64,000 nt of DNA from Curtobacterium flaccumfaciens pv. betae (GTDB lineage: Bacteria; Actinomycetota; Actinomycetes; Actinomycetales; Microbacteriaceae), in contig NZ_JAPJDC010000001.1 in assembly GCF_026241855.1 (NCBI RefSeq), positions 1-64,000 of the forward strand, written 5' to 3'. The notes under the pieces are model-generated. The model was not told the DNA's origin. It did no database searches and saw nothing but the letters and a program-made list of their open reading frames with translations. This document shows, piece by piece, positions 43,906 through 55,336 of the stretch; the stretch's first letter is position 1; every line of letters begins with the position of its first letter. The translations under genes and the position numbers were made by a program.

Positions 43906-45195
43906 TCAGGGGGCGGTGTCGGCGAGCTGCGGGCCGAGTGCCCGGCGTCGGGCCTGCAGCACGGGGTTGACGGTCGCGACGAGCATGATCAGCAGGCCGA
44001 TCGCGATCACGAACGGCACCGGTCGGAGCGGGTCGGTCCAGCTCGTCAGGGCGGTGGGGATGCTCGCGAGTGCGAACGGCAGCGCGATGAGCACCGAGGT
44101 CACGACGAGCGCGACGGCCTCGAGGACGGCTCCGACGAGTGCGGTCCGGAACGTCCCGCCGGCGACGACGAGCAGGGCGACATCGCGCCGCCGACCCGAC
44201 GTGGTCATCACGACGGTCGCGGCGCCGGTGAACAGGACGATCAGGACCGGCCCGCCGAAGATCGCCAGGCCGCCCAGGTAGTACGCCGGGGAGTCCCAGA
44301 CGCCGGCCAGACCGGTGAGCGCGGCGAGCATCACGGCCACGGCGAGCAGTGCGATCGCCGCGTGGCTCCGTGCAGCGTGGAAGCGCAGTGACTCGCGGGC
44401 GAGGAACCAGGGGGCCGTCGCCGCGGGCACTGCTGTGGTCCACGCCGAGACCAGCCAACCACACAGCCACGGTGCCGATGTGATGACCAGGCCCATTGCC
44501 GGGACGAGGAAGAGCATCGACATCCCGCGTTCGCCGAGCAGCGTCGCGGCGTACATCGCCAGGGAGATGCCGCCGAGGGCGCACGCGGTGACGAGTCGAG
44601 CACGGCCGGGGCGCGTCGGCTCGAGCTCGGGCTCCCGGACGGCGAGGAGTGCGGGGGTCCTCGAGGCCGCGCGTGCCGCCCCGAGGGCGCTCAGCAGGAC
44701 CACGAGGACGAACACCACGAGCGCGAGCATGGTCTCGACGACCCCGAGTCGCGGCTGGAGCGCCGCTGCACCCGGGTTCCGTAGCGGTGCCGACAGGAAC
44801 GCCATCAGGGCGCCGAGCACGAGCGGCACGAGTGCCAGGGCCGTGGCGAACGCGACGAGGGCCAGCGTCGCGGCCTGGGCGAGCACCACGCGCTCGACGA
44901 GTCCGGGACCGATCCCCGCCAGCTGCCAGCGTGCGTGGTCCTGACGCTGCGTCCGGATCGAGAAGCCGACGAGCACGTTCAGGGCACCGATCACCACGAT
45001 CGCGTTCATCGCCCCGAACACCAGAGCGTGGTTCCGGAGTCCGGCTGCCTCGACGGGGTCGGTGACGGCGGCGGCGGTCGAGACGTCCCCGGCGCAGACC
45101 AGGGCGACGAGGGCCGCGAGCACCATCACGACGAAGGCCGCGGTCCACAGACGCCACGACCGCGCCACCTCGGAGAGGACGAGTCGGGCGATCAC
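43906..45195 (-). CDS. FtsX-like ABC exporter permease
   Basis: A 429-residue membrane protein with an N-terminal helix, FtsX-type helices grouped near 60-180 and again near 300-420, and small extracellular parts, as in MacB/BceB-like permeases that export or sense peptides and antibiotics. Coupled by a 4-bp overlap to the ATPase gene upstream. Substrate unknown; no two-component system adjoins it. Confidence 0.85.
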   Translation of the reverse strand: MIARLVLSEVARSWRLWTAAFVVMVLAALVALVCAGDVSTAAAVTDPVEAAGLRNHALVFGAMNAIVVIGALNVLVGFSIRTQRQDHARWQLAGIGPGLVERVVLAQAATLALVAFATALALVPLVLGALMAFLSAPLRNPGAAALQPRLGVVETMLALVVFVLVVLLSALGAARAASRTPALLAVREPELEPTRPGRARLVTACALGGISLAMYAATLLGERGMSMLFLVPAMGLVITSAPWLCGWLVSAWTTAVPAATAPWFLARESLRFHAARSHAAIALLAVAVMLAALTGLAGVWDSPAYYLGGLAIFGGPVLIVLFTGAATVVMTTSGRRRDVALLVVAGGTFRTALVGAVLEAVALVVTSVLIALPFALASIPTALTSWTDPLRPVPFVIAIGLLIMLVATVNPVLQARRRALGPQLADTAP

Positions 45196-45908
45196 CGGGA
45201 CACCGCCTGCAGCACGTCGGCCGCGGTCGGTGCGACGAGTTCGCGGTGCAGACGTCCGTCACGCAGGACGAGCACCCGGTCGCCACGGGCCGCCGCCTCG
45301 AGGTCGTGCGTGACCATCACCACGGAGCGCGATCCCGTGGCAGCGCCCTGCAGCAAGGCGAGCACCCTCGCGCCGGACTCGGAGTCGAGGGCACCGGTCG
45401 GCTCGTCGGCGAAGACCACGTCGGGGGCCGTGACGATCGTGCGCGCGATCGCCACCCGCTGCTGCTGCCCGCCGGAGAGCTGCCCCGGTCGCTGCCGGGC
45501 CACGTCGGACAGGCCGACGGCGGCGAGGGCGTCGTGGACGGCCGACCGATCGAGTGAGCCGGACGCCAGGCGCAGCGGCAGGGCGACGTTGTCGAACGCC
45601 GTCAGTGCCGGGATGAGGTTGTACGACTGGAACACGAAACCGAGGTGGTCGCGGCGGAACCGTGCAAGGGCGTCCCCGCGGAGCGTCGCCAGGTCGGTGC
45701 CGTCGATGCGGACCGAGCCGGAGCTGGGGGAGTCCAGTCCGGACAGGCACTGCAGCAGGGTGGACTTGCCCGACCCGCTGGGTCCGACGATGGTGACGAA
45801 CTCGCCACGGGGGACGGACACCGTGATGTCGTCGAGGACGATGGCTTCCCGTTCGCCGGGGCCGCGGAACGAGCGGGACAGCCCGACGGCGGAGATGAGA
45901 GAGTTCAT
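45192..45908 (-). CDS. ABC transporter ATPase, MacB/LolD type
   Basis: Partner of the FtsX-like permease. With Walker A GPSGSGKST, Q-loop, signature LSGGQQQRVAIARTI, Walker B VVFADEPTGALD and H-loop THD. I start at ATG 45908 (238 aa), not the ATG six codons upstream, because the minus-strand TATATT (45915-45920) ends exactly 6 nt before it: a leaderless transcript. An AT-rich palindrome overlaps this promoter. Confidence 0.92.
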   Translation of the reverse strand: MNSLISAVGLSRSFRGPGEREAIVLDDITVSVPRGEFVTIVGPSGSGKSTLLQCLSGLDSPSSGSVRIDGTDLATLRGDALARFRRDHLGFVFQSYNLIPALTAFDNVALPLRLASGSLDRSAVHDALAAVGLSDVARQRPGQLSGGQQQRVAIARTIVTAPDVVFADEPTGALDSESGARVLALLQGAATGSRSVVMVTHDLEAAARGDRVLVLRDGRLHRELVAPTAADVLQAVSR

Positions 45909-45914
45909 CGCGCC

Positions 45915-45930
45915 AATATATGACATATGT
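45915..45930. promoter_or_regulatory. AT-rich promoter with operator-like palindrome
   Basis: ATATGACATAT (45918-45928) is an 11-nt perfect odd palindrome overlapping the -10 hexamer TATATT of the leftward ABC exporter. Such AT-rich palindromes are typical of PadR/MarR/TetR operators. No regulator gene is adjacent. Confidence 0.6.
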
Positions 45931-45994: not shown

Positions 45995-48580
45995 ATGAGT
46001 GCAGAGCTGACGCTCGGCGCCGAGGAAGAGCTGCACCTCATCGACCTCGAGTCCGGCCGACTTTCCGCGAAGGCCCCGCGCCTTCTGCCCAAACTGCCCA
46101 CCGACCGCTTCGGCGCCGAGCTGCAGCGCACGACGATCGAGACGAACACCCCGGTGGTGCGGACCCTCGACGACCTGCGGCGGGTGATCGTCGACCTGCG
46201 CAGTGAGCTCAGCGCCGCGATCGCCCCGGCCGGCGTCACCATCGCGGCCGTCGGCACCGCGCCGAGGTCGGAGTACGCCGACTTCGAGCTGAGCTCCGGC
46301 GGTCGGTACGGCCGGATGCAGGAGCAGTACCGGATGCTCGTCGACGAACAGCTCATCTGCGGCCTGCAGGTGCACGTCGGGGTGAGCGACCGCGACCTGG
46401 CGGTGCTGATCGCCCAGCGGGTGGCGCCGGTGCTCCCGGTGCTGCTCGCCCTGAGCGCGTCGAGTCCGTTCTGGAACGGGCAGGACACCGGGTACGCCTC
46501 GTTCCGCAGCATCATCTGGCAGCGGTGGCCGTCGGCCGGCAGCTTCGGTCCGGTCGAAGACGCCGCCGAGTACGACCGGGTGCTCGACGACCTGATCGCC
46601 TCGGGCGTGATCGCCGACAAGAAGATGGCGTACTTCGACGTGCGGCCGTCCTCGCACGCACCGACGCTGGAACTCCGGGTCTGCGACGCGACCCCGGTGG
46701 TGGACGACGCCGTGCTCATCGCCGGACTCTTCCGCGCCGCCGTGCGCAAGGCCGAGAAGTCGGTCGTGTCGGGCGCCGAGTGGCATCCGCGCAGCGAACC
46801 CCTGCACCGTGCGGCGATGTGGCAGGCCGCCCGCTCCGGGTTGAGCGGGGAACTCGTCGGCCTCGGACAGCACCCCGAACGCCTGCCCGCCGAGGTCGCG
46901 GTGCGCCAGCTCGTGTCCCGCCTGCGCCCGGAGCTCGAGGAGCTCGGCGACTGGGGGACGGTGACGGAGCTGCTCGACGCGACCCTGGCCCGCGGCAACT
47001 CCACCGACCGGCAGCGCACCGCGTACGCCGAGCGTGGGGAGATGGACGACGTCGTCGCCCTGGTGGTGGAGGACACCGCGGGGCTCCCGTCCGGACGCGA
47101 CGAGGACCCCGTGGTCCCGATCCACGGGTACCGCGTCCGCGCCGGCGACGAGGCGGTCGGCCCCGGTGCACGCCCTCGTCCCGCGTTCCGTGACCTGGCG
47201 GCGTTCTTCGACGGCTGGGACGCCGAGACCGCGATCGAGCGCTGCACCGCCCGCGACGTCTGGACCCGCGAGCACCACGTCGGCTTCGTGGTGGACGGCG
47301 GGGCGCAGGAGTTCGGCTGCGACCTGGTGCCCCGGACGATCAGCGCGTACGAGTGGTCACAGCTCGAGCGTGGCCTGGGGCAGCGTGCCCGCGCGATCGA
47401 GCTGTTCCTGCGTGACGCGTACGGCGACCGGCGGATCGTGGCCGACGGCGTGCTGGACGCGGACCACTTCGTCGGCGCGAAGGGCTGGGACCCGGACGCC
47501 ACCCGGCTGCCGGCGACCGCCGTCCGTGCGCCGGTGCTCGGGTTCGACCTGGTGCGCAACGAGTTCGGCGGCTGGCGGGTGCTCGAGGACAACGTCCGCT
47601 CGCCCTCGGGCGTCGCGTACGGCATCGCGCTGCGCGAGCTGATGGACGACGTCGTGCCGGACGCCCCGCGGCCGGCGCACCTGCGCGACCCGCACGGCGT
47701 GACCGACCGCCTCCGCCGGACCCTCTGCGCGAACACCTCCGCGGTGACGGGCGCGACCGACCCCGTGATCGCGCTGGTCAGCGACGGCCCCGCCGCCGGC
47801 GCGTGGTTCGAGCACCGCAGGCTGGCCGACGGGGCCGGGATGCGCCTCCTGTCCGGGTCGGACCTGGACGTCCGTGACGGACGCGTGGTCGACGCGACGA
47901 CGGGCGACGTGCTCGACGGGCTGTACCTGCGGATCGACCGCGACGTCAGCGCGCTGACCGCGGAGCACGCTCCCGACCTGGGCGCGCGGATCCTCGACGC
48001 GGCGGAGGCAGGACTCGTCTACCTGGCGAACGCGCCGGGCAACGCGCTGGTCGACGACAAGGCGATGTACGTCACCGTGCCGGACCTGATCTGGTACTAC
48101 CTGGACGAGAAACCGCTGCTGGCATCGGTGCCGACCTACCGCACGAGCATCGAGGTCGAACGGCTGTCGGTCCTGGACCGCGTCGGGGAACTCGTCACGA
48201 AGCCGGTCGACGGCGAGGGCGGACGCGGGGTCCTGATCGGACCGAGCGCGAGCGCCCCCGAGGTGGCCGAGCGACGGCGCGAGATCGCCGCGGACCCCGC
48301 CGGGTGGGTGGGGCAGGAGGTGGTGCAGCTGTCCTCGCACCCGACGATCGGACCGGCCGGTCTCGACCCGCGGCACGTGGACCTGCGGGCCTTCGTCTAC
48401 GCGACGGGGACCGGACCGGACGACGTGCACCTGGCCGACGTCGCCCTGACGCGCGTCGCGCCCGAGGGCAGCATGGTCGTCAACTCGTCGCAGGGCGGCG
48501 GCGCGAAGGACACGTGGATCGTCGGGAACGCCCCGGCGGACACCGACCCCGCCCCGGCGGACACCGAGGGAGAGCGCTGA
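45995..48580 (+). CDS. Fusion: carboxylate-amine ligase (GCS2/YbdK) + circularly permuted ATP-grasp
   Basis: Two peptide-bond-forming domains in one 861-residue chain. Residues about 1-370 are glutamate-cysteine-ligase family 2 (starts LTLGAEEELHLID; later QVHVGVSDRDL, SSPFWNGQDTGYAS and ELRVCDATP). Residues about 390-861 are a circularly permuted type 2 ATP-grasp with LEDNVRSPSG (N533), KPVDGEGGRGV and NSSQGGGAKDTW (N830). Each could ligate an amino acid to a carboxylate. TAGGTT (45983-45988) ends 6 nt before ATG: leaderless. The stop overlaps the amidotransferase start by one base. Product unknown. Confidence 0.92.
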   Translation: MSAELTLGAEEELHLIDLESGRLSAKAPRLLPKLPTDRFGAELQRTTIETNTPVVRTLDDLRRVIVDLRSELSAAIAPAGVTIAAVGTAPRSEYADFELSSGGRYGRMQEQYRMLVDEQLICGLQVHVGVSDRDLAVLIAQRVAPVLPVLLALSASSPFWNGQDTGYASFRSIIWQRWPSAGSFGPVEDAAEYDRVLDDLIASGVIADKKMAYFDVRPSSHAPTLELRVCDATPVVDDAVLIAGLFRAAVRKAEKSVVSGAEWHPRSEPLHRAAMWQAARSGLSGELVGLGQHPERLPAEVAVRQLVSRLRPELEELGDWGTVTELLDATLARGNSTDRQRTAYAERGEMDDVVALVVEDTAGLPSGRDEDPVVPIHGYRVRAGDEAVGPGARPRPAFRDLAAFFDGWDAETAIERCTARDVWTREHHVGFVVDGGAQEFGCDLVPRTISAYEWSQLERGLGQRARAIELFLRDAYGDRRIVADGVLDADHFVGAKGWDPDATRLPATAVRAPVLGFDLVRNEFGGWRVLEDNVRSPSGVAYGIALRELMDDVVPDAPRPAHLRDPHGVTDRLRRTLCANTSAVTGATDPVIALVSDGPAAGAWFEHRRLADGAGMRLLSGSDLDVRDGRVVDATTGDVLDGLYLRIDRDVSALTAEHAPDLGARILDAAEAGLVYLANAPGNALVDDKAMYVTVPDLIWYYLDEKPLLASVPTYRTSIEVERLSVLDRVGELVTKPVDGEGGRGVLIGPSASAPEVAERRREIAADPAGWVGQEVVQLSSHPTIGPAGLDPRHVDLRAFVYATGTGPDDVHLADVALTRVAPEGSMVVNSSQGGGAKDTWIVGNAPADTDPAPADTEGER

Positions 48581-50415
48581 TGTGTGGACTCGCGGGCGAG
48601 ATCCGGTTCGACGGCCGAGCGCCGGACGTCGGGGCGGTCGCCCGGATGACCGGCTGCATGATGCACCGCGGCCCGGACGGCGACGGTCTGTGGGCTCGCG
48701 GCCCGGTCGCGCTCGGGCACCGACGGCTGTCCATCGTCGACCTGTCCACCGCGGGCGCGCAGCCGATGGTGCTGGCCGAGGCCGGGCTGACGATCGCCTA
48801 CAACGGGATGGTCTACAACTACCGGCAGCTCCGCGACGAGCTGCACGGCAAGGGGCACCGGTTCGCGTCGACGTCGGACACCGAGGTCATCGCCCTGGCG
48901 TACGCCGAGTGGGGCACCGCCTTCGTCGACCACCTGATCGGGATGTTCGCCATCGTCATCTGGGAGCACGGCAGCGGCCGACTCGTGCTGGCGCGGGACC
49001 GGCTCGGCATCAAGCCGCTCTACGTCGCGCCCGTCCCGGGCGGCCTCCGGTTCGCGAGCTCCCTGCCGGCGATCCTGGCCGGCGACGCCGGCAGCAGCCG
49101 CACGAGCGGCAGCGGTGGCACGGGCACCGGCACCAAGGAAGTCGACACGTCCATCGACCCTGTCGCCTTCGCCTCGTACATGAGCTTCCACTCGATCGTC
49201 CCCGCGCCCCGCACGATCCTGGCCGGCGTCGGCAAGCTGCCGCCGGCGACCGTCCGGGTGATCGACCCCGACGGCACCGCGCGCGACACCGTCTACTGGG
49301 AGCCCCGTTTCGAGCGTGACCCCGCCCGGGCGGACTGGTCGGAGCGGGACTGGGAGCAGGCGTTCATCGGCTCGCTCCGCACCGCCGTCGAGCGCCGGAT
49401 GGTGGCCGACGTCCCCGTCGGGGTGCTGCTCTCCGGTGGGATCGACTCCTCGCTCGTGGTCGGGCTGCTCGCCGAGGCCGGGCAGCAGGACCTCGCCACG
49501 TTCAGCATCGGGTTCGAGGCGGCGGGCGGTGAGTCCGGCGACGAGTTCGAGTACTCCGACCAGGTCGCTGCGCACTTCGGCACCGACCACCACCGCATCC
49601 ACATCCCCTCGTCGCGCCTGCTCGACGGCATCGACGGTGCGGTCGCCGCCATGAGCGAGCCGATGGTCAGCCACGACTGCGTCGCCTTCTACCTGCTGTC
49701 GCAGGAGGTCTCGCAGCACGTCAAGGTGGTGCAGTCCGGCCAGGGCGCCGACGAGGTGCTCGCCGGGTACGACTGGTACCCGCCGCTCGCCGACGTCCCG
49801 CGCGACCAGGCCGCCGAGGCGTACCGCTCCGTGTTCATGGACCGCCGGTGGCCCGCGCTGCAGGGCCTGCTCGGGGAGCGGTGGAAGAGCGACGACGACA
49901 CCCCGTCGGCCTTCGTCGACCGCCAGTTCGCACGGCCGGGCGCGGAGACGAGCGTGGATACCGCGCTCCGCAGCGACACCACGATCATGCTCGTCGACGA
50001 CCCGGTGAAGCGCGTCGACAACATGACGATGGCATGGGGGCTCGAGGCCCGCGTGCCGTTCCTGGACCACGAGTTCGTCGAGCTCGCCGCCGCGATCCCG
50101 CCGTCGATGAAGCTCACCGACGGCGGCAAGGGCGTGATGAAGCGCGCCTCGCGCGGGATCGTGCCCGACGCCGTCATCGACCGCAGCAAGGGCTCGTTCC
50201 CGGTCCCCGCCATCCGGCAGCTCGAGGGCCCGTACCTGGAGCGCGTCCGCGACGCGCTGCACGCACCCGAGGCGCGGGAGCGCGGGCTCTTCGACCCCGC
50301 CACCGTCGAGCGGATGCTGCAGGACCCGAACAGCACCAGGACCGCGATCGGCGCGAACGCGCTCTGGCAGCTCGGCCTGATCGAGATGTGGCTGCAGCAG
50401 CAGGGGGTGCGGTGA
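48580..50415 (+). CDS. Asparagine-synthetase-like amidotransferase (NAGGN AsnO type)
   Basis: Glutamine-hydrolysing amidotransferase that converts a carboxylate to an amide. N-terminal Ntn domain begins with Cys2 (MCGLAGEIRFDG), and the synthetase domain has the PP-loop SGGIDSS (285-291) and GQGADEVLAGYDWY. Length 611 aa; a short Gly/Ser/Thr-rich insert lies near residues 170-190. The sequence around YDWYPP resembles the N-acetylglutaminylglutamine amidotransferase more than AsnB; context, between a peptide ligase and a peptidase, fits. Both ends overlap neighbours. Confidence 0.88.
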   Translation: MCGLAGEIRFDGRAPDVGAVARMTGCMMHRGPDGDGLWARGPVALGHRRLSIVDLSTAGAQPMVLAEAGLTIAYNGMVYNYRQLRDELHGKGHRFASTSDTEVIALAYAEWGTAFVDHLIGMFAIVIWEHGSGRLVLARDRLGIKPLYVAPVPGGLRFASSLPAILAGDAGSSRTSGSGGTGTGTKEVDTSIDPVAFASYMSFHSIVPAPRTILAGVGKLPPATVRVIDPDGTARDTVYWEPRFERDPARADWSERDWEQAFIGSLRTAVERRMVADVPVGVLLSGGIDSSLVVGLLAEAGQQDLATFSIGFEAAGGESGDEFEYSDQVAAHFGTDHHRIHIPSSRLLDGIDGAVAAMSEPMVSHDCVAFYLLSQEVSQHVKVVQSGQGADEVLAGYDWYPPLADVPRDQAAEAYRSVFMDRRWPALQGLLGERWKSDDDTPSAFVDRQFARPGAETSVDTALRSDTTIMLVDDPVKRVDNMTMAWGLEARVPFLDHEFVELAAAIPPSMKLTDGGKGVMKRASRGIVPDAVIDRSKGSFPVPAIRQLEGPYLERVRDALHAPEARERGLFDPATVERMLQDPNSTRTAIGANALWQLGLIEMWLQQQGVR

Positions 50416-52358
50416 CCGTGGGTTCCGTCCGGACTGGAGGCGCGCAGGGCGTCGCGTCGTCGGCCACCGTCGAGCCGTCGGTCACCACCAGGGCCGCGGC
50501 CGACCTGGGTGCGCGGCTCACCGCCGCCTGGGGGTCGTGGGGACCGACCATGACCCGGAACGCCCGGCGGGTGGCGTTCGTGAGCGACCGGCACGGCACC
50601 CCCGAGGTCTTCGTGCAGGACGTCGTCGTCGACGGCGAGCTGCCGGAACCGGTGCGGATCGCGCTCTCCGACGACCCCGTGATCCGGGTGTCGTGGTCCT
50701 CCGACGGGGAGTGGCTCGCCGTCGCCATCGCAACCGACGGCGGCGTGAAGCAACAGGTCTGGGTGGTGCGGCCGGACGGCTCCGACGCCGCGCAGATCGC
50801 CGGCTCGCGGTACCAGCACGCCGAACTCGGACCGTGGAGCCGCAGCGGACACCGGGTCGTCATCACCCTGCCGTCGACCGAGCCCGAGCAGCCGGCCCGT
50901 GCGTACCTGGTCGACCCGGTCACCGGTGATCGCGACGACCTGGCCGTGGGGGAGCTCATCCACATCCTCGACCTGTCGGTGGAGGAACGGCTCGTCGTGC
51001 TGAGCGACGGCCAGCGCGGCCAGGAGTTCGTCGTGGTCGTCGACCGGCTGACGGACGAGAGCCACGCCCTGTTCGCCGACGACCCCGACGGGTCCGCCGA
51101 GATCGCGTTCCTGCGACCCTCGCCCGCGAGCGAGACCAGTCCGCTCGTCGCCTACGTCGCCACCGAGGCCGGACTGCCCCGCCGCGGACTCGTCGCGCAG
51201 CCGGTCGGGCCGCACGGCTGGCGCGGCACACCGCGGCGGATCGTCGAGCGCGACGACGCCGAGCTCGAGTACCTGGACGCCGACGACGCCGGTCGCACGC
51301 TGCTGCTCGTCTGGAACGTCGACGGTCGCAGCGAACTCGACCTCATCAACACCCACGACGCCTCGCGCACCCCCGTGCCGGACCTGCCCGGGTACGTCGT
51401 CACCGACCCCGTGCTCAGCCGTGACGGCCGGAGCGTGCTGCTCGCCGTCGAGGGACCGACCCGGCCGCGCGAACTGTGGCGACTCGACACGAACGCGCTG
51501 ACCTGGAGCCGGGTCACCGACGTGCCGGTGCTGCCCGACGTGCAGCTGGTCGAGCCGACGCTCGAGCGGTTCGCCGCCCGCGACGGACTGGAGCTGACCG
51601 GGTGGCTGTACCGGGCCGTGGAGCCGACCGCGTCGGCGGCGCATGCCGACCCTGGTGCTGGTGCCGTGCCTCCCGGCCGCGCAGCGCTCGTCCACCTGCA
51701 CGGCGGACCGGAGTCGCAGGAACGACCCACGTTCTCGCCGCAGCACCAGGCGCTCGCCGCCGCCGGGGTGACCGTGTTCGCACCGAACATCCGCGGGTCC
51801 TCCGGGTACGGCCACGAGTTCGTGCACGCCGACGACCTGGCGCTGCGGTGGAACGCGCTCGCCGACGTCGTCGACTGCGCTCGGTTCCTGGTGACCAACG
51901 GGTACGCCGAGCGTTCCCGGGTCGCCGTCGAGGGACGCTCGTACGGCGGGTACGCGACGCTCGCGTCGTTGGCCTTCACGCCCGACGTGTTCGCGGCCGG
52001 GGTCGCGGTGTGCGGGATGAGCGACTTCGCGACCTTCTACCGGGACACCGAACCGTGGATCGCGGCCGCTGCCGCCACGAAGTACGGCCACCCCGTCGAG
52101 GACGAGGCCCTGCTCGCGGCACTGTCGCCGATGCGCGCGATCGACGACGTCACGGCGCCGCTGCTCGTCGTGCACGGTGAGCTCGACACGAACGTGCCGA
52201 TCGGTGAGGCGCACCAGGTCGTCGCGGCGCTGCGGGAGCGGTCGCACGACGTGGAGTACCTGGAGCTCGAGGGTGAGGGGCACGAGTACCGGCGGGCGTC
52301 GTCGCAGGCGCTGCTCGTGCGGCGGATGGTCGAGTTCGTGGCGGCGCGGCTGGGGTGA
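50412..52358 (+). CDS. S9 family (prolyl oligopeptidase-type) peptidase
   Basis: Serine aminopeptidase/acylaminoacyl peptidase-like protein of 648 aa from GTG 50412 (GTGA overlap with the amidotransferase). The N-terminal half has beta-propeller repeats (VSWSSDGEWLAVAI, DPVLSRDGRSVLLAV), the C-terminal alpha/beta hydrolase has Ser510 in GRSYGGY, Asp592 in GELDTNV and His624 in GEGHEY. No signal peptide, so cytoplasmic. In the cluster it may recycle or trim the dipeptide product. Confidence 0.92.
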   Translation: MTVGSVRTGGAQGVASSATVEPSVTTRAAADLGARLTAAWGSWGPTMTRNARRVAFVSDRHGTPEVFVQDVVVDGELPEPVRIALSDDPVIRVSWSSDGEWLAVAIATDGGVKQQVWVVRPDGSDAAQIAGSRYQHAELGPWSRSGHRVVITLPSTEPEQPARAYLVDPVTGDRDDLAVGELIHILDLSVEERLVVLSDGQRGQEFVVVVDRLTDESHALFADDPDGSAEIAFLRPSPASETSPLVAYVATEAGLPRRGLVAQPVGPHGWRGTPRRIVERDDAELEYLDADDAGRTLLLVWNVDGRSELDLINTHDASRTPVPDLPGYVVTDPVLSRDGRSVLLAVEGPTRPRELWRLDTNALTWSRVTDVPVLPDVQLVEPTLERFAARDGLELTGWLYRAVEPTASAAHADPGAGAVPPGRAALVHLHGGPESQERPTFSPQHQALAAAGVTVFAPNIRGSSGYGHEFVHADDLALRWNALADVVDCARFLVTNGYAERSRVAVEGRSYGGYATLASLAFTPDVFAAGVAVCGMSDFATFYRDTEPWIAAAAATKYGHPVEDEALLAALSPMRAIDDVTAPLLVVHGELDTNVPIGEAHQVVAALRERSHDVEYLELEGEGHEYRRASSQALLVRRMVEFVAARLG

Positions 52359-52398
52359 GGCCTGGCGGGGCGGGGCGCTCGGTCTGGTGCTCGGTCTG

Positions 52399-52459
52399 GT
52401 GCGAGGTTCCGTACTCCGTGCGGCGCACGTGCCCTCGCACCGAGTACGGAACCTCGCAC
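52399..52459. repeat. Long inverted repeat between the peptidase and GNAT genes
   Basis: 18-bp perfect arms (52399-52416 and 52442-52459; core GAGGTTCCGTACTC) separated by 25 nt. A smaller palindrome CTCGCAC-C-GTGCGAG follows near 52474-52488. It may be a terminator for the upstream operon or a mobile palindromic element. The 197-bp gap contains no gene. Confidence 0.75.
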
Positions 52460-52555
52460 GGGCCGTGGGCCCCCTCGCACCGTGCGAGCCGCGGCTCGGC
52501 GTCACCGGGTGCAACGATGCGTCGGCGGCGCTCGCCGCGGGCGGAGAATGGTGGC

Positions 52556-53515
52556 ATGACGACGACTGCGCCGACCTCGACCGCGCTGCCCCGACCGGGA
52601 GAGGTCCTCGTGGCCTCGGCAGCGGAGGTCGAGCAGGTCGTCCACCATGCCACGAACCAGTACGCCTCCGACGTCGTCGCGGACACCGCCGGGTGGGCGG
52701 ACGGCGATCGTCGGCGGATCGAGGACCTCGGGTTCCGTGGTGGTGATGCCCGCGGCGAGGCGCTCCGGACCCTCGACCTGACGATCGCCGACGACGGAAC
52801 CCCGACGCGCATGCTCGACGCACCCGCGATGGCCGCACTGAACAGCCACCACGCGCGGTTCGCCGAGCGGCGCGGCGACGTGGTCCGCTACCAGACCGAC
52901 GTGTCGGTGTGGACGGGGATCCCCGAGCGACCCACCGCGCAGGACTGGGAGGACGTCCGGGCGCTGCTCGGGTCGGGCGGGATGCTCGGCGTCGGTGCGG
53001 CTGCCGTCCTGCCCGAGGGGTGGGAGCTCGTCGAGGGTGCCGGCGGCGTGCAGCTGACCGGTGAGGCGATCGAGGGTGCGCCGGATGACGAAGCCGTCGT
53101 GCTGACGCCCGATGACGTGCCGGAGATGACCGCCCTGGTGGAACGGACGAAGCCCGGGCCGTTCCTGCCGCGCACGATCGAGCTCGGCACGTACCTGGGC
53201 ATCCGGCGGGACGGGCGGCTCGTCGCCATGGCGGGGGAGCGGTTGCACCCGCCGGGGTGGACCGAGATCAGCGCGGTGTGCACGGACGAGGCGTACCGGG
53301 GGCAGGGGTTCGGGCGTCGGTTGGTGCTCGCCGTCGCGCACGGGATCCGGGAGCGCGGGGAGATCCCTCTGATGCACGCGGCCGCCGGCAACACCGGGGC
53401 GATCGGGCTGTACCAGCACCTGGGGTTCCGCCTGCGGGACCGTGGGGCGCCGCGGTTCGTGCGGGTGCCGGACGGGAGCGATCGGCCGGCCGGGAGCGGC
53501 AGTTCGGGGGGTTGA
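52556..53515 (+). CDS. GNAT family N-acetyltransferase with an extra N-terminal domain
   Basis: A 319-residue protein. The C-terminal half (about 170-305) is an FR47-like acetyltransferase with acetyl-CoA loop YRGQGFGRRL (Y247 onward) and NTGAIGLYQHLGF. The first 165 residues are not recognised as a separate family. GAGAAT (52544-52549) ends 6 nt before ATG 52556, so it has its own leaderless promoter and is not co-transcribed with the peptidase. N-acetylation of the cluster's product is possible but unproven. Confidence 0.85.
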   Translation: MTTTAPTSTALPRPGEVLVASAAEVEQVVHHATNQYASDVVADTAGWADGDRRRIEDLGFRGGDARGEALRTLDLTIADDGTPTRMLDAPAMAALNSHHARFAERRGDVVRYQTDVSVWTGIPERPTAQDWEDVRALLGSGGMLGVGAAAVLPEGWELVEGAGGVQLTGEAIEGAPDDEAVVLTPDDVPEMTALVERTKPGPFLPRTIELGTYLGIRRDGRLVAMAGERLHPPGWTEISAVCTDEAYRGQGFGRRLVLAVAHGIRERGEIPLMHAAAGNTGAIGLYQHLGFRLRDRGAPRFVRVPDGSDRPAGSGSSGG

Positions 53516-54619: not shown

Positions 54620-55336
54620 ATGTCCACGACCATGCCCGGCTTCGGGACGGAGCGCATCACGCAGCTCGGTCTGCGTGACCGCGTCTACGACCGGGTGCTC
54701 GAGGTCCTGATGGGCCACGACGTCGAACCGGGCATGCGGCTGTCGATCGACGGCCTCGCCCGCTCCCTCGGGGTCTCGCCGACCCCGGTGCGTGAAGCCC
54801 TGGTGCAACTCGAACGCACCGGCCTCGTCACCCGCGAAGCGAACAAGGGGTACCGGGTCTCCCCGCCCCTGGCCGGCGACCAGCTCGAGGCCCTGTTCGA
54901 CGCCCGGCTCATCGTGGAGAGCGGTGCCGTCGAGCTCGCGGCCCGCGGTGACGTCGACGGCCTGCGCGAGCGACTCGCGGCAGCGCTCGACGAGCAGGCT
55001 GCGGTGGCCGCCGAGGTCGCGTCGGTCGGGGCTGCGCACGCCCCGGAGGAGCTGATGGCCCGCTTCTTCCGCAGCGACTGGCAGTTCCACCAGCTGATCT
55101 TCGATGCGACGCGGAACCCGTTCCTCGAGGAGATGTCCGAGATCATCACGACGCGCGTGCACCGCATGCGGCAGATCGTCGAGGGTGGCGGGGACGACAC
55201 GGATCGTGCGGTCCAGGAACACCGGGCCATCCTGGAGGCGCTTGCTGCGGACCCGACGTCGGCCGTCGCCGCGATGCGGCTCCACATCGACGCCGTCCGG
55301 TTGCGTTCGCGCGCGGACGCATCCCACACCAGCTGA
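54620..55336 (+). CDS. GntR family regulator (FadR/FCD type)
   Basis: A 238-residue regulator with the winged helix at about 15-80 (SIDGLARSLGVSPTPVREAL) and a C-terminal FCD ligand domain with metal-type residues in WQFHQLIF and EHRAILEAL. It precedes the sugar operon in the same direction with an 18-bp palindrome in between, so it is the likely regulator. TAGGAT (54608-54613) ends 6 nt before ATG: leaderless. Confidence 0.94.
   Translation: MSTTMPGFGTERITQLGLRDRVYDRVLEVLMGHDVEPGMRLSIDGLARSLGVSPTPVREALVQLERTGLVTREANKGYRVSPPLAGDQLEALFDARLIVESGAVELAARGDVDGLRERLAAALDEQAAVAAEVASVGAAHAPEELMARFFRSDWQFHQLIFDATRNPFLEEMSEIITTRVHRMRQIVEGGGDDTDRAVQEHRAILEALAADPTSAVAAMRLHIDAVRLRSRADASHTS

Follow-up and report, generated by a model that had tools for sequence, protein, structure and literature searches.

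Gene content of the locus

The stretch of DNA analysed here (the window) comprises the first 64,000 nucleotides of contig NZ_JAPJDC010000001.1 of Curtobacterium flaccumfaciens pv. betae (assembly GCF_026241855.1), and our subject within it is a set of three genes that encode a fusion peptide ligase, a glutamine amidotransferase and an S9 family serine peptidase (Table 1). The genome measures 3.78 Mb and its nearest named relatives at this locus are Curtobacterium, with the fusion being 98% identical to that of C. flaccumfaciens LMG 3645. An earlier reading of the window's sequence (hereafter the original prediction) had described the three genes as mutually overlapping, which is what we observe: the start codon of the amidotransferase (ATG 48580) shares one base with the stop codon of the fusion (TGATG), and that of the peptidase (GTG 50412, with an alternative at GTG 50418) overlaps the end of the amidotransferase by four bases. 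Promoter and terminator scans gave no signal above chance.

Table 1 Features of the three-gene locus and its surroundings, in window coordinates
Feature	Position	Strand	Basis
Fusion peptide ligase, GCS2 + circularly permuted ATP-grasp, 861 aa	45995..48580	+	Pfam and NF010041 profiles
GCS2 domain, residues 7-283, GhExE-type motif G8-A-E10-E-E12	46013..46843	+	Pfam and motif
CP_ATPgrasp_2 domain, residues 446-822	47330..48460	+	Pfam; aligns to solved chain 3n6x
TIGR03104-family glutamine amidotransferase, AsnO type, 611 aa	48580..50415	+	Profile over cut-off
S9 family serine peptidase, 648 aa	50412..52358	+	Pfam and solved-structure matches
Hairpin, 61 nt, between S9 stop and GNAT start	52399-52459
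GNAT gene, 197 bases past S9 stop	likeliest start ATG 52556	same as S9
GntR gene	54620-55336
ABC (ATP-binding cassette) exporter pair (permease + ATPase), diverging from cluster	43906-45926	-

Both domains proposed for the first gene product were found by Pfam within its 861 residues (GCS2 at 180.6 bits and CP_ATPgrasp_2 at 328.3 bits), and the protein also scores 348.1 bits on NF010041, above the cut-off of 332. The identical domain pair occurs in all 120 fusion relatives listed, and in the genome of the window the fusion holds the sole match to CP_ATPgrasp_2. Enzymes of the GCS2 type activate a carboxylate by phosphorylation, in most cases the one at the gamma position of glutamate, before ligating it to an amine, and are defined by a GhExE motif (PMC2588565). 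The fusion carries this motif, and its N-terminal half belongs to the same family as the free-standing GCS2/YbdK-type carboxylate-amine ligases (NF010041, TIGR02050), although here the domain is joined to a circularly permuted (CP) ATP-grasp and linked to an amidotransferase. Residues that never vary across 30 aligned fusions include, in the GCS2 half, G8, E10, E12, H127, R171, R217, E226 and R228, all aligned with YbdK, and, in the ATP-grasp half, E531, D532, N533, K736, D796 and R798, located in regions alignable with 3n6x; N830 of the latter half is nearly invariant. In our reading, some of the invariant residues beyond the GhExE motif would act in catalysis.

The second gene product scores 895.9 bits on TIGR03104 (cut-off 570.1), the model for the amidotransferase that serves in the synthesis of the known salt protectant N-acetylglutaminylglutamine amide (NAGGN), and is the only match above cut-off in the genome. 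The description "AsnO-like" was right as to type but understated, since the protein is a full member of this family. Its score is roughly twice the 412.6 it reaches on the general asparagine synthase model TIGR01536 (also above the cut-off there, 267.1), and the 279.0 on the AsnB model NF006949 lies below the cut-off of 499, which sets the enzyme apart from housekeeping AsnB, in keeping with the original prediction. The best solved match of the third gene product is the amino acyl peptidase 5l8s, followed by prolyl oligopeptidase and acylamino-acid-releasing enzymes.

Conservation of the three-gene unit

We followed the unit through two partly overlapping sets: the named fusion loci (the best 80 of 120, with up to 7 kb of flanking DNA on each side and neighbours assigned by home-made profiles built from few seeds), a set rich in Curtobacterium with 21 loci of the Curtobacterium group, and a sample of 249 Microbacteriaceae genomes. 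In the latter, the fusion was found in 26 genomes at E 1e-110 (in one case divided between two contigs, in another with a match to 785 of the 861 residues), with six more matching by the GCS2 half only, and TIGR03104 was likewise found in 26 genomes (27 genes). The amidotransferase adjoins the fusion in 23 of the 26 fusion genomes and the S9 gene lies downstream in 22 of these 23, the sole exception ending at a contig end. Three of the 22, all from one genus, have 0.7-2.6 kb of extra DNA in between, with a HAD hydrolase gene in the one examined. The four Microbacteriaceae amidotransferases that lie apart comprise two near a GCS2 gene (one with an M20 peptidase) and two that are taken up below. 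The M20 case (L138 7983-12629 (-), genome G247) consists of overlapping M20 peptidase, GCS2 and amidotransferase genes, and so has another peptidase in the same place.

Among the 80 named loci, the amidotransferase is next to the fusion in 60 (median gap of 35 bases between profile matches); the two do not, in other words, occur mostly apart. Both amidotransferase and S9 were present in 55 loci, with two having the amidotransferase only, three the amidotransferase followed by a contig end, three S9 without amidotransferase, 16 neither, and one being cut off. The peptidase thus tracks the amidotransferase (55/2/3/16, Fisher p 1e-11, for 76 of 80 rows after four cut-off rows were dropped, the rows not being independent). 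All three genomes whose fusion locus has S9 but no local amidotransferase carry ngg, the peptide ligase gene of NAGGN synthesis, and in both of the genomes examined a TIGR03104 gene was confirmed beside it; one of the three loci lies near a contig end. As a separate observation, the amidotransferase and S9 genes of Frondihabitans sucicola (L174 9543-13212) are each broken over frames, by decay or by sequencing errors.

The fusion loci include representatives of Microbacteriaceae, Geodermatophilaceae, Kineosporiaceae, Propionibacteriaceae, Nocardioidaceae and Nakamurellaceae, plus a record labelled Streptomyces, and the recurrence of the three-gene order across families argues for more than chance. 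When neighbours were clustered (using a home-made gene caller, and the first word of the record title as genus label), only the fusion (23 genus labels), S9 (18) and the amidotransferase (16) recurred widely, the next cluster reaching 7 labels with an opposite-strand frame as its example. The central idea of the original prediction, a conserved unit of ligase fusion, amidotransferase and peptidase that parallels the NAGGN trio, is upheld.

The unit is not static. Six free-standing Microbacteriaceae GCS2 genes sit within the fusion clade of the GCS2 tree, and by the starred branches of this tree the label "fusion without amidotransferase" must have changed seven times (with the cut-off locus L224 counted in the label). 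These placements suggest that the presence of both the ATP-grasp half and the amidotransferase has changed repeatedly, with loss as the simplest account.

Relation to NAGGN clusters

NAGGN is made in two steps, with Ngg forming N-acetylglutaminylglutamine and AsnO amidating this dipeptide (PMC8070244, PMC5563000), and a peptidase is thought to balance the NAGGN pool (PMC5563000). An actinobacterium that has both asnO and ngg has yielded NAGGN itself (PMC8146288), and in Micromonospora, clusters of the NAGGN type are well represented (PMC11537254). In an evenly drawn sample of 246 Actinomycetota genomes, TIGR03104 was found at E 1e-150 in 31, of which 21 have ngg, always 3' of the amidotransferase, and the remaining 10 have GCS2 and/or CP-ATP-grasp 5' of it. 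Both partner types at one locus were found in none of the 31 within the stretches examined (Fisher p 2e-8, on rows that are not independent of one another). Two of the 10 are fusions, five are lone GCS2 genes (four with S9) and three are loci of family f18 (L050, L051, L055), the last of which show a separate CP-ATP-grasp before the amidotransferase, DUF1028 after it and, in two of the three, a distant upstream GCS2.

Six of the 88 plasmid-collection records with a TIGR03104 relative were also examined. Streptomyces fungicidicus has GCS2, the amidotransferase and an alpha/beta hydrolase assigned to S9 by Pfam; Nonomuraea and Embleya have a lone GCS2 in the place of the fusion, followed by the amidotransferase and S9 by profile; Azospirillum thermophilum has the canonical trio and Sinorhizobium meliloti 1021 has asnO-ngg. 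The sixth record, Streptomyces sp. NBC_01276, is taken up below. A direct fusion of GCS2 and amidotransferase, suspected in genome G117, proved to be two genes in different frames.

The system thus shares with the NAGGN trio (asnO - ngg - M42 peptidase; TIGR03103, TIGR03104) an amidotransferase of the same family, an adjoining two-domain peptide ligase and a peptidase, and with them a logic of ligation, amidation and turnover. The notion that every partner had been rebuilt from other families accordingly fails for the amidotransferase. The differences lie in the ligase, which is GCS2 + CP-ATP-grasp and 5' of the amidotransferase here, whereas Ngg is GNAT + RimK-type ATP-grasp and 3' of it (the Ngg of Azospirillum gives only a 27-bit local BLASTP match to the fusion), in the peptidase, S9 instead of M42, and in the lack of a conserved acetyltransferase. 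A single-sequence query detected no M42 peptidase near the window amidotransferase, the rest of the genome lying outside this search.

In a tree of 64 amidotransferase rows (a quick search with 48 of 63 earlier rows and 16 new ones), the fusion-linked enzymes and those of the Streptomyces/Nonomuraea/Embleya type share one side of a branch (33 rows, Shimodaira-Hasegawa-like approximate likelihood ratio test (SH-aLRT) 97), a grouping with support 90 in the first set of 63 rows. Where two Blastococcus genomes carry two amidotransferases, the fusion-linked copy falls inside this clade and the ngg-linked copy outside. We then compared residues using a signature of 74 positions, each of them conserved at 90% or above among 23 ngg-linked rows but seldom seen in 18 AsnB-like rows. 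Two further AsnB-like rows (L235 and L260) had been dropped from the original 20 as they start without the Cys-Gly of most others and are apparently misread, long rows were cut at 700 residues, and partial AsnB-like loci (L237, L249, L251, L258, L259) as well as loci that are TIGR03104 themselves were left out. The signature is kept at 87% in 24 fusion rows, 85% in seven Streptomyces-type rows, 96% in family f18, 89% in G117 and 74% in four outlying rows; for comparison, seven held-out ngg clades retain 86-98% of their own sets of 62-82 positions, the Sinorhizobium meliloti / Azospirillum pair being one of the seven, at 87%. By profile scores and the 61 of 74 signature positions that it keeps, which are rare in AsnB-like rows, the window amidotransferase falls outside AsnB. 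Positions conserved at 85% or above in each class yet differing between them numbered only two of 611, too few for a different substrate to be read from class-specific residues. We read the kept signature as a conserved acceptor end, probably a C-terminal glutamine.

Annotation of these genes as NAGGN machinery is likely to be misleading. The label "N-acetylglutaminylglutamine amidotransferase" stands on records without adjoining ngg (Streptomyces fungicidicus, Streptomyces sp. NBC_01276), from which NAGGN may be wrongly inferred. No description of the three-gene cluster was found in a search of open-licence literature or in passages of the papers cited above and of PMC8170138 and PMC12067966, although a mention in the Iyer et al. 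2009 survey is possible.

Predicted pathway and alternative explanations

We propose that the fusion, amidotransferase and S9 peptidase constitute one operon for the synthesis and turnover of a small peptide amide, in a pathway that runs parallel to that of NAGGN and is separate from it. We give this reading a probability of roughly 60%; it builds on the domain make-up, motifs, gene overlaps, conserved linkage and exclusion of ngg at the locus, all of which are observed directly. In such a pathway, the GCS2 half would likely make a (gamma-)glutamyl peptide bond and the CP-ATP-grasp half a further amide bond, after which the TIGR03104 enzyme would likely amidate the free carboxylate of the C-terminal residue, probably glutamine as in NAGGN. 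By analogy with NAGGN, the S9 peptidase is likely to degrade or recycle the amidated product. More weakly, the product may be a gamma-glutamyl-(X)-glutamine amide that serves as a compatible solute.

Several observations weigh against this proposal. The fusion stands alone, without amidotransferase or S9 nearby, in 16 of the 80 loci (L168, L171-L173, L175-L177, L181, L194, L204, L210, L215, L222, L223, L226 and L228), and no TIGR03104 gene was found anywhere in these 16 genomes, whose completeness is not stated; the fusion therefore has a role without amidation. Conversely, Streptomyces sp. NBC_01276 (L147) has the amidotransferase and S9 with no ligase nearby, and two Microbacteriaceae amidotransferases (L139, L141) have no visible partner. 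The lone-GCS2 clusters show no ATP-grasp nearby, which makes the number of ligation steps uncertain. The signature positions kept by the window amidotransferase amount to 82%, a lower share than in any of the held-out ngg clades, and the ngg-type residue is absent from the fusion rows at position 398, for example. Lastly, no N-capping enzyme is conserved across fusion loci.

One alternative, which we regard as unlikely, is that the fusion produces a specialised peptide, a cofactor or a peptide tag with no link to osmotic stress, the amidotransferase only tailoring the product. An alpha-E gene is a usual partner of CP-ATP-grasp, and systems of the two were reportedly predicted by Iyer et al. 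in 2009 to perform peptide-tagging. The C-terminal half of our fusion is likewise CP_ATPgrasp_2, and the genome contains one alpha-E gene (PF04168; C1:658933-659655, locus L274, 6886-7824 +) that has no other CP_ATPgrasp_2 to serve, none of the four frames examined around it being a CP-ATP-grasp. It could possibly act as an unlinked partner of the fusion, and a specialised product would also fit the persistence of the fusion without amidotransferase and S9 in scattered branches (the seven forced changes, L224 counted). However, the alpha-E gene lies 610 kb away, so that none adjoins the fusion as in the described systems; no further gene recurs widely beside the fusion; and S9 accompanies the amidotransferase, as the M42 peptidase does in the canonical trio.

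It seems quite improbable that the fusion is a non-orthologous replacement which makes the dipeptide of Ngg, the product being NAGGN itself. Such a replacement would explain why ngg and GCS2/CP-ATP-grasp exclude each other at the locus and why the amidotransferase largely retains the ngg-type signature with almost no class-specific positions. It would also agree with the absence of ngg (TIGR03103) from the window genome at E 1e-60 and from all 249 Microbacteriaceae genomes, a family of which 26 genomes carry TIGR03104 (the set yields no positive, and the same model matched 21 of the 246 phylum genomes). Yet ngg is also present in 9 of the 18 non-Microbacteriaceae fusion genomes (metagenome assemblies in two of these cases; two Microbacteriaceae control genomes in this search had none), and two Blastococcus genomes combine an asnO-ngg cluster with a second, fusion-linked amidotransferase without adjoining S9 (L190, L205 with L265, L266). 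The lack of a conserved acetyltransferase and the presence of the fusion where no amidotransferase turned up also speak against NAGGN as the product.

Returning to a distinct peptide amide, the coexistence with ngg in half of the non-Microbacteriaceae fusion genomes suggests that the product is probably not NAGGN, and this coexistence, the Blastococcus genomes with two amidotransferases and the 16 fusion-only genomes without TIGR03104 together lead us to conclude that amidation would be an optional late step. Lineages without the amidotransferase would then have the un-amidated peptide as end product. A broader proposal, which we put forward tentatively and at slightly less than even odds, is that Actinomycetota possess a second, independently built group of peptide-amide solutes, in which GCS2/CP-ATP-grasp and a NAGGN-type amidotransferase yield a gamma-glutamyl-(X)-glutamine amide; some genomes would make it in addition to NAGGN, and those that lack the amidotransferase would make the un-amidated form. 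Many actinobacteria are thereby predicted to contain a small peptide amide, and the record names of several point to leaves, lichens or soil as their source; a plain three-gene set is offered for testing. Since the amidating enzyme is missing in scattered lineages and some genomes also have true NAGGN clusters, experiments could tell apart what each of the two peptide ends does.

Neighbouring genes

The original prediction had extended the cluster by a GNAT gene and by a diverging exporter pair next door, and both exist as genes, with the GNAT on the same strand although not at 52355 as first placed (Table 1). The GNAT was found in 11 of the 21 loci of the Curtobacterium group (the ten that lack it include a short contig) and beside the fusion in none of the 59 loci outside this group, on which grounds its role as N-capping enzyme was rejected. 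In seven of the ten GNAT-less Curtobacterium-group loci, the GntR gene of the window comes after S9 instead. The exporter pair does not belong to the unit and was rejected as product exporter: its permease matched none of the 80 fusion loci, including two loci of named C. flaccumfaciens strains, and its ATPase had matches in 17 of 80, with 29-49% identity and no fixed position, as is expected for a common family. A five-part version, in which the GNAT caps the N-terminus and the ABC pair exports the product, is thus hardly credible, as the downstream position of the GNAT in about half of the Curtobacterium-group loci is outweighed by its absence elsewhere, the GntR gene in its place, the missing permease and a strong hairpin between S9 and GNAT.

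This hairpin has 18 uninterrupted outer pairs, and folding of an 81-nt stretch gave -57.8 kcal/mol (z -7.1). Of 274 loci, just two (L151 and L153) contain an exact copy of the 16-base motif of its arm, a single one each, between S9 and GNAT.

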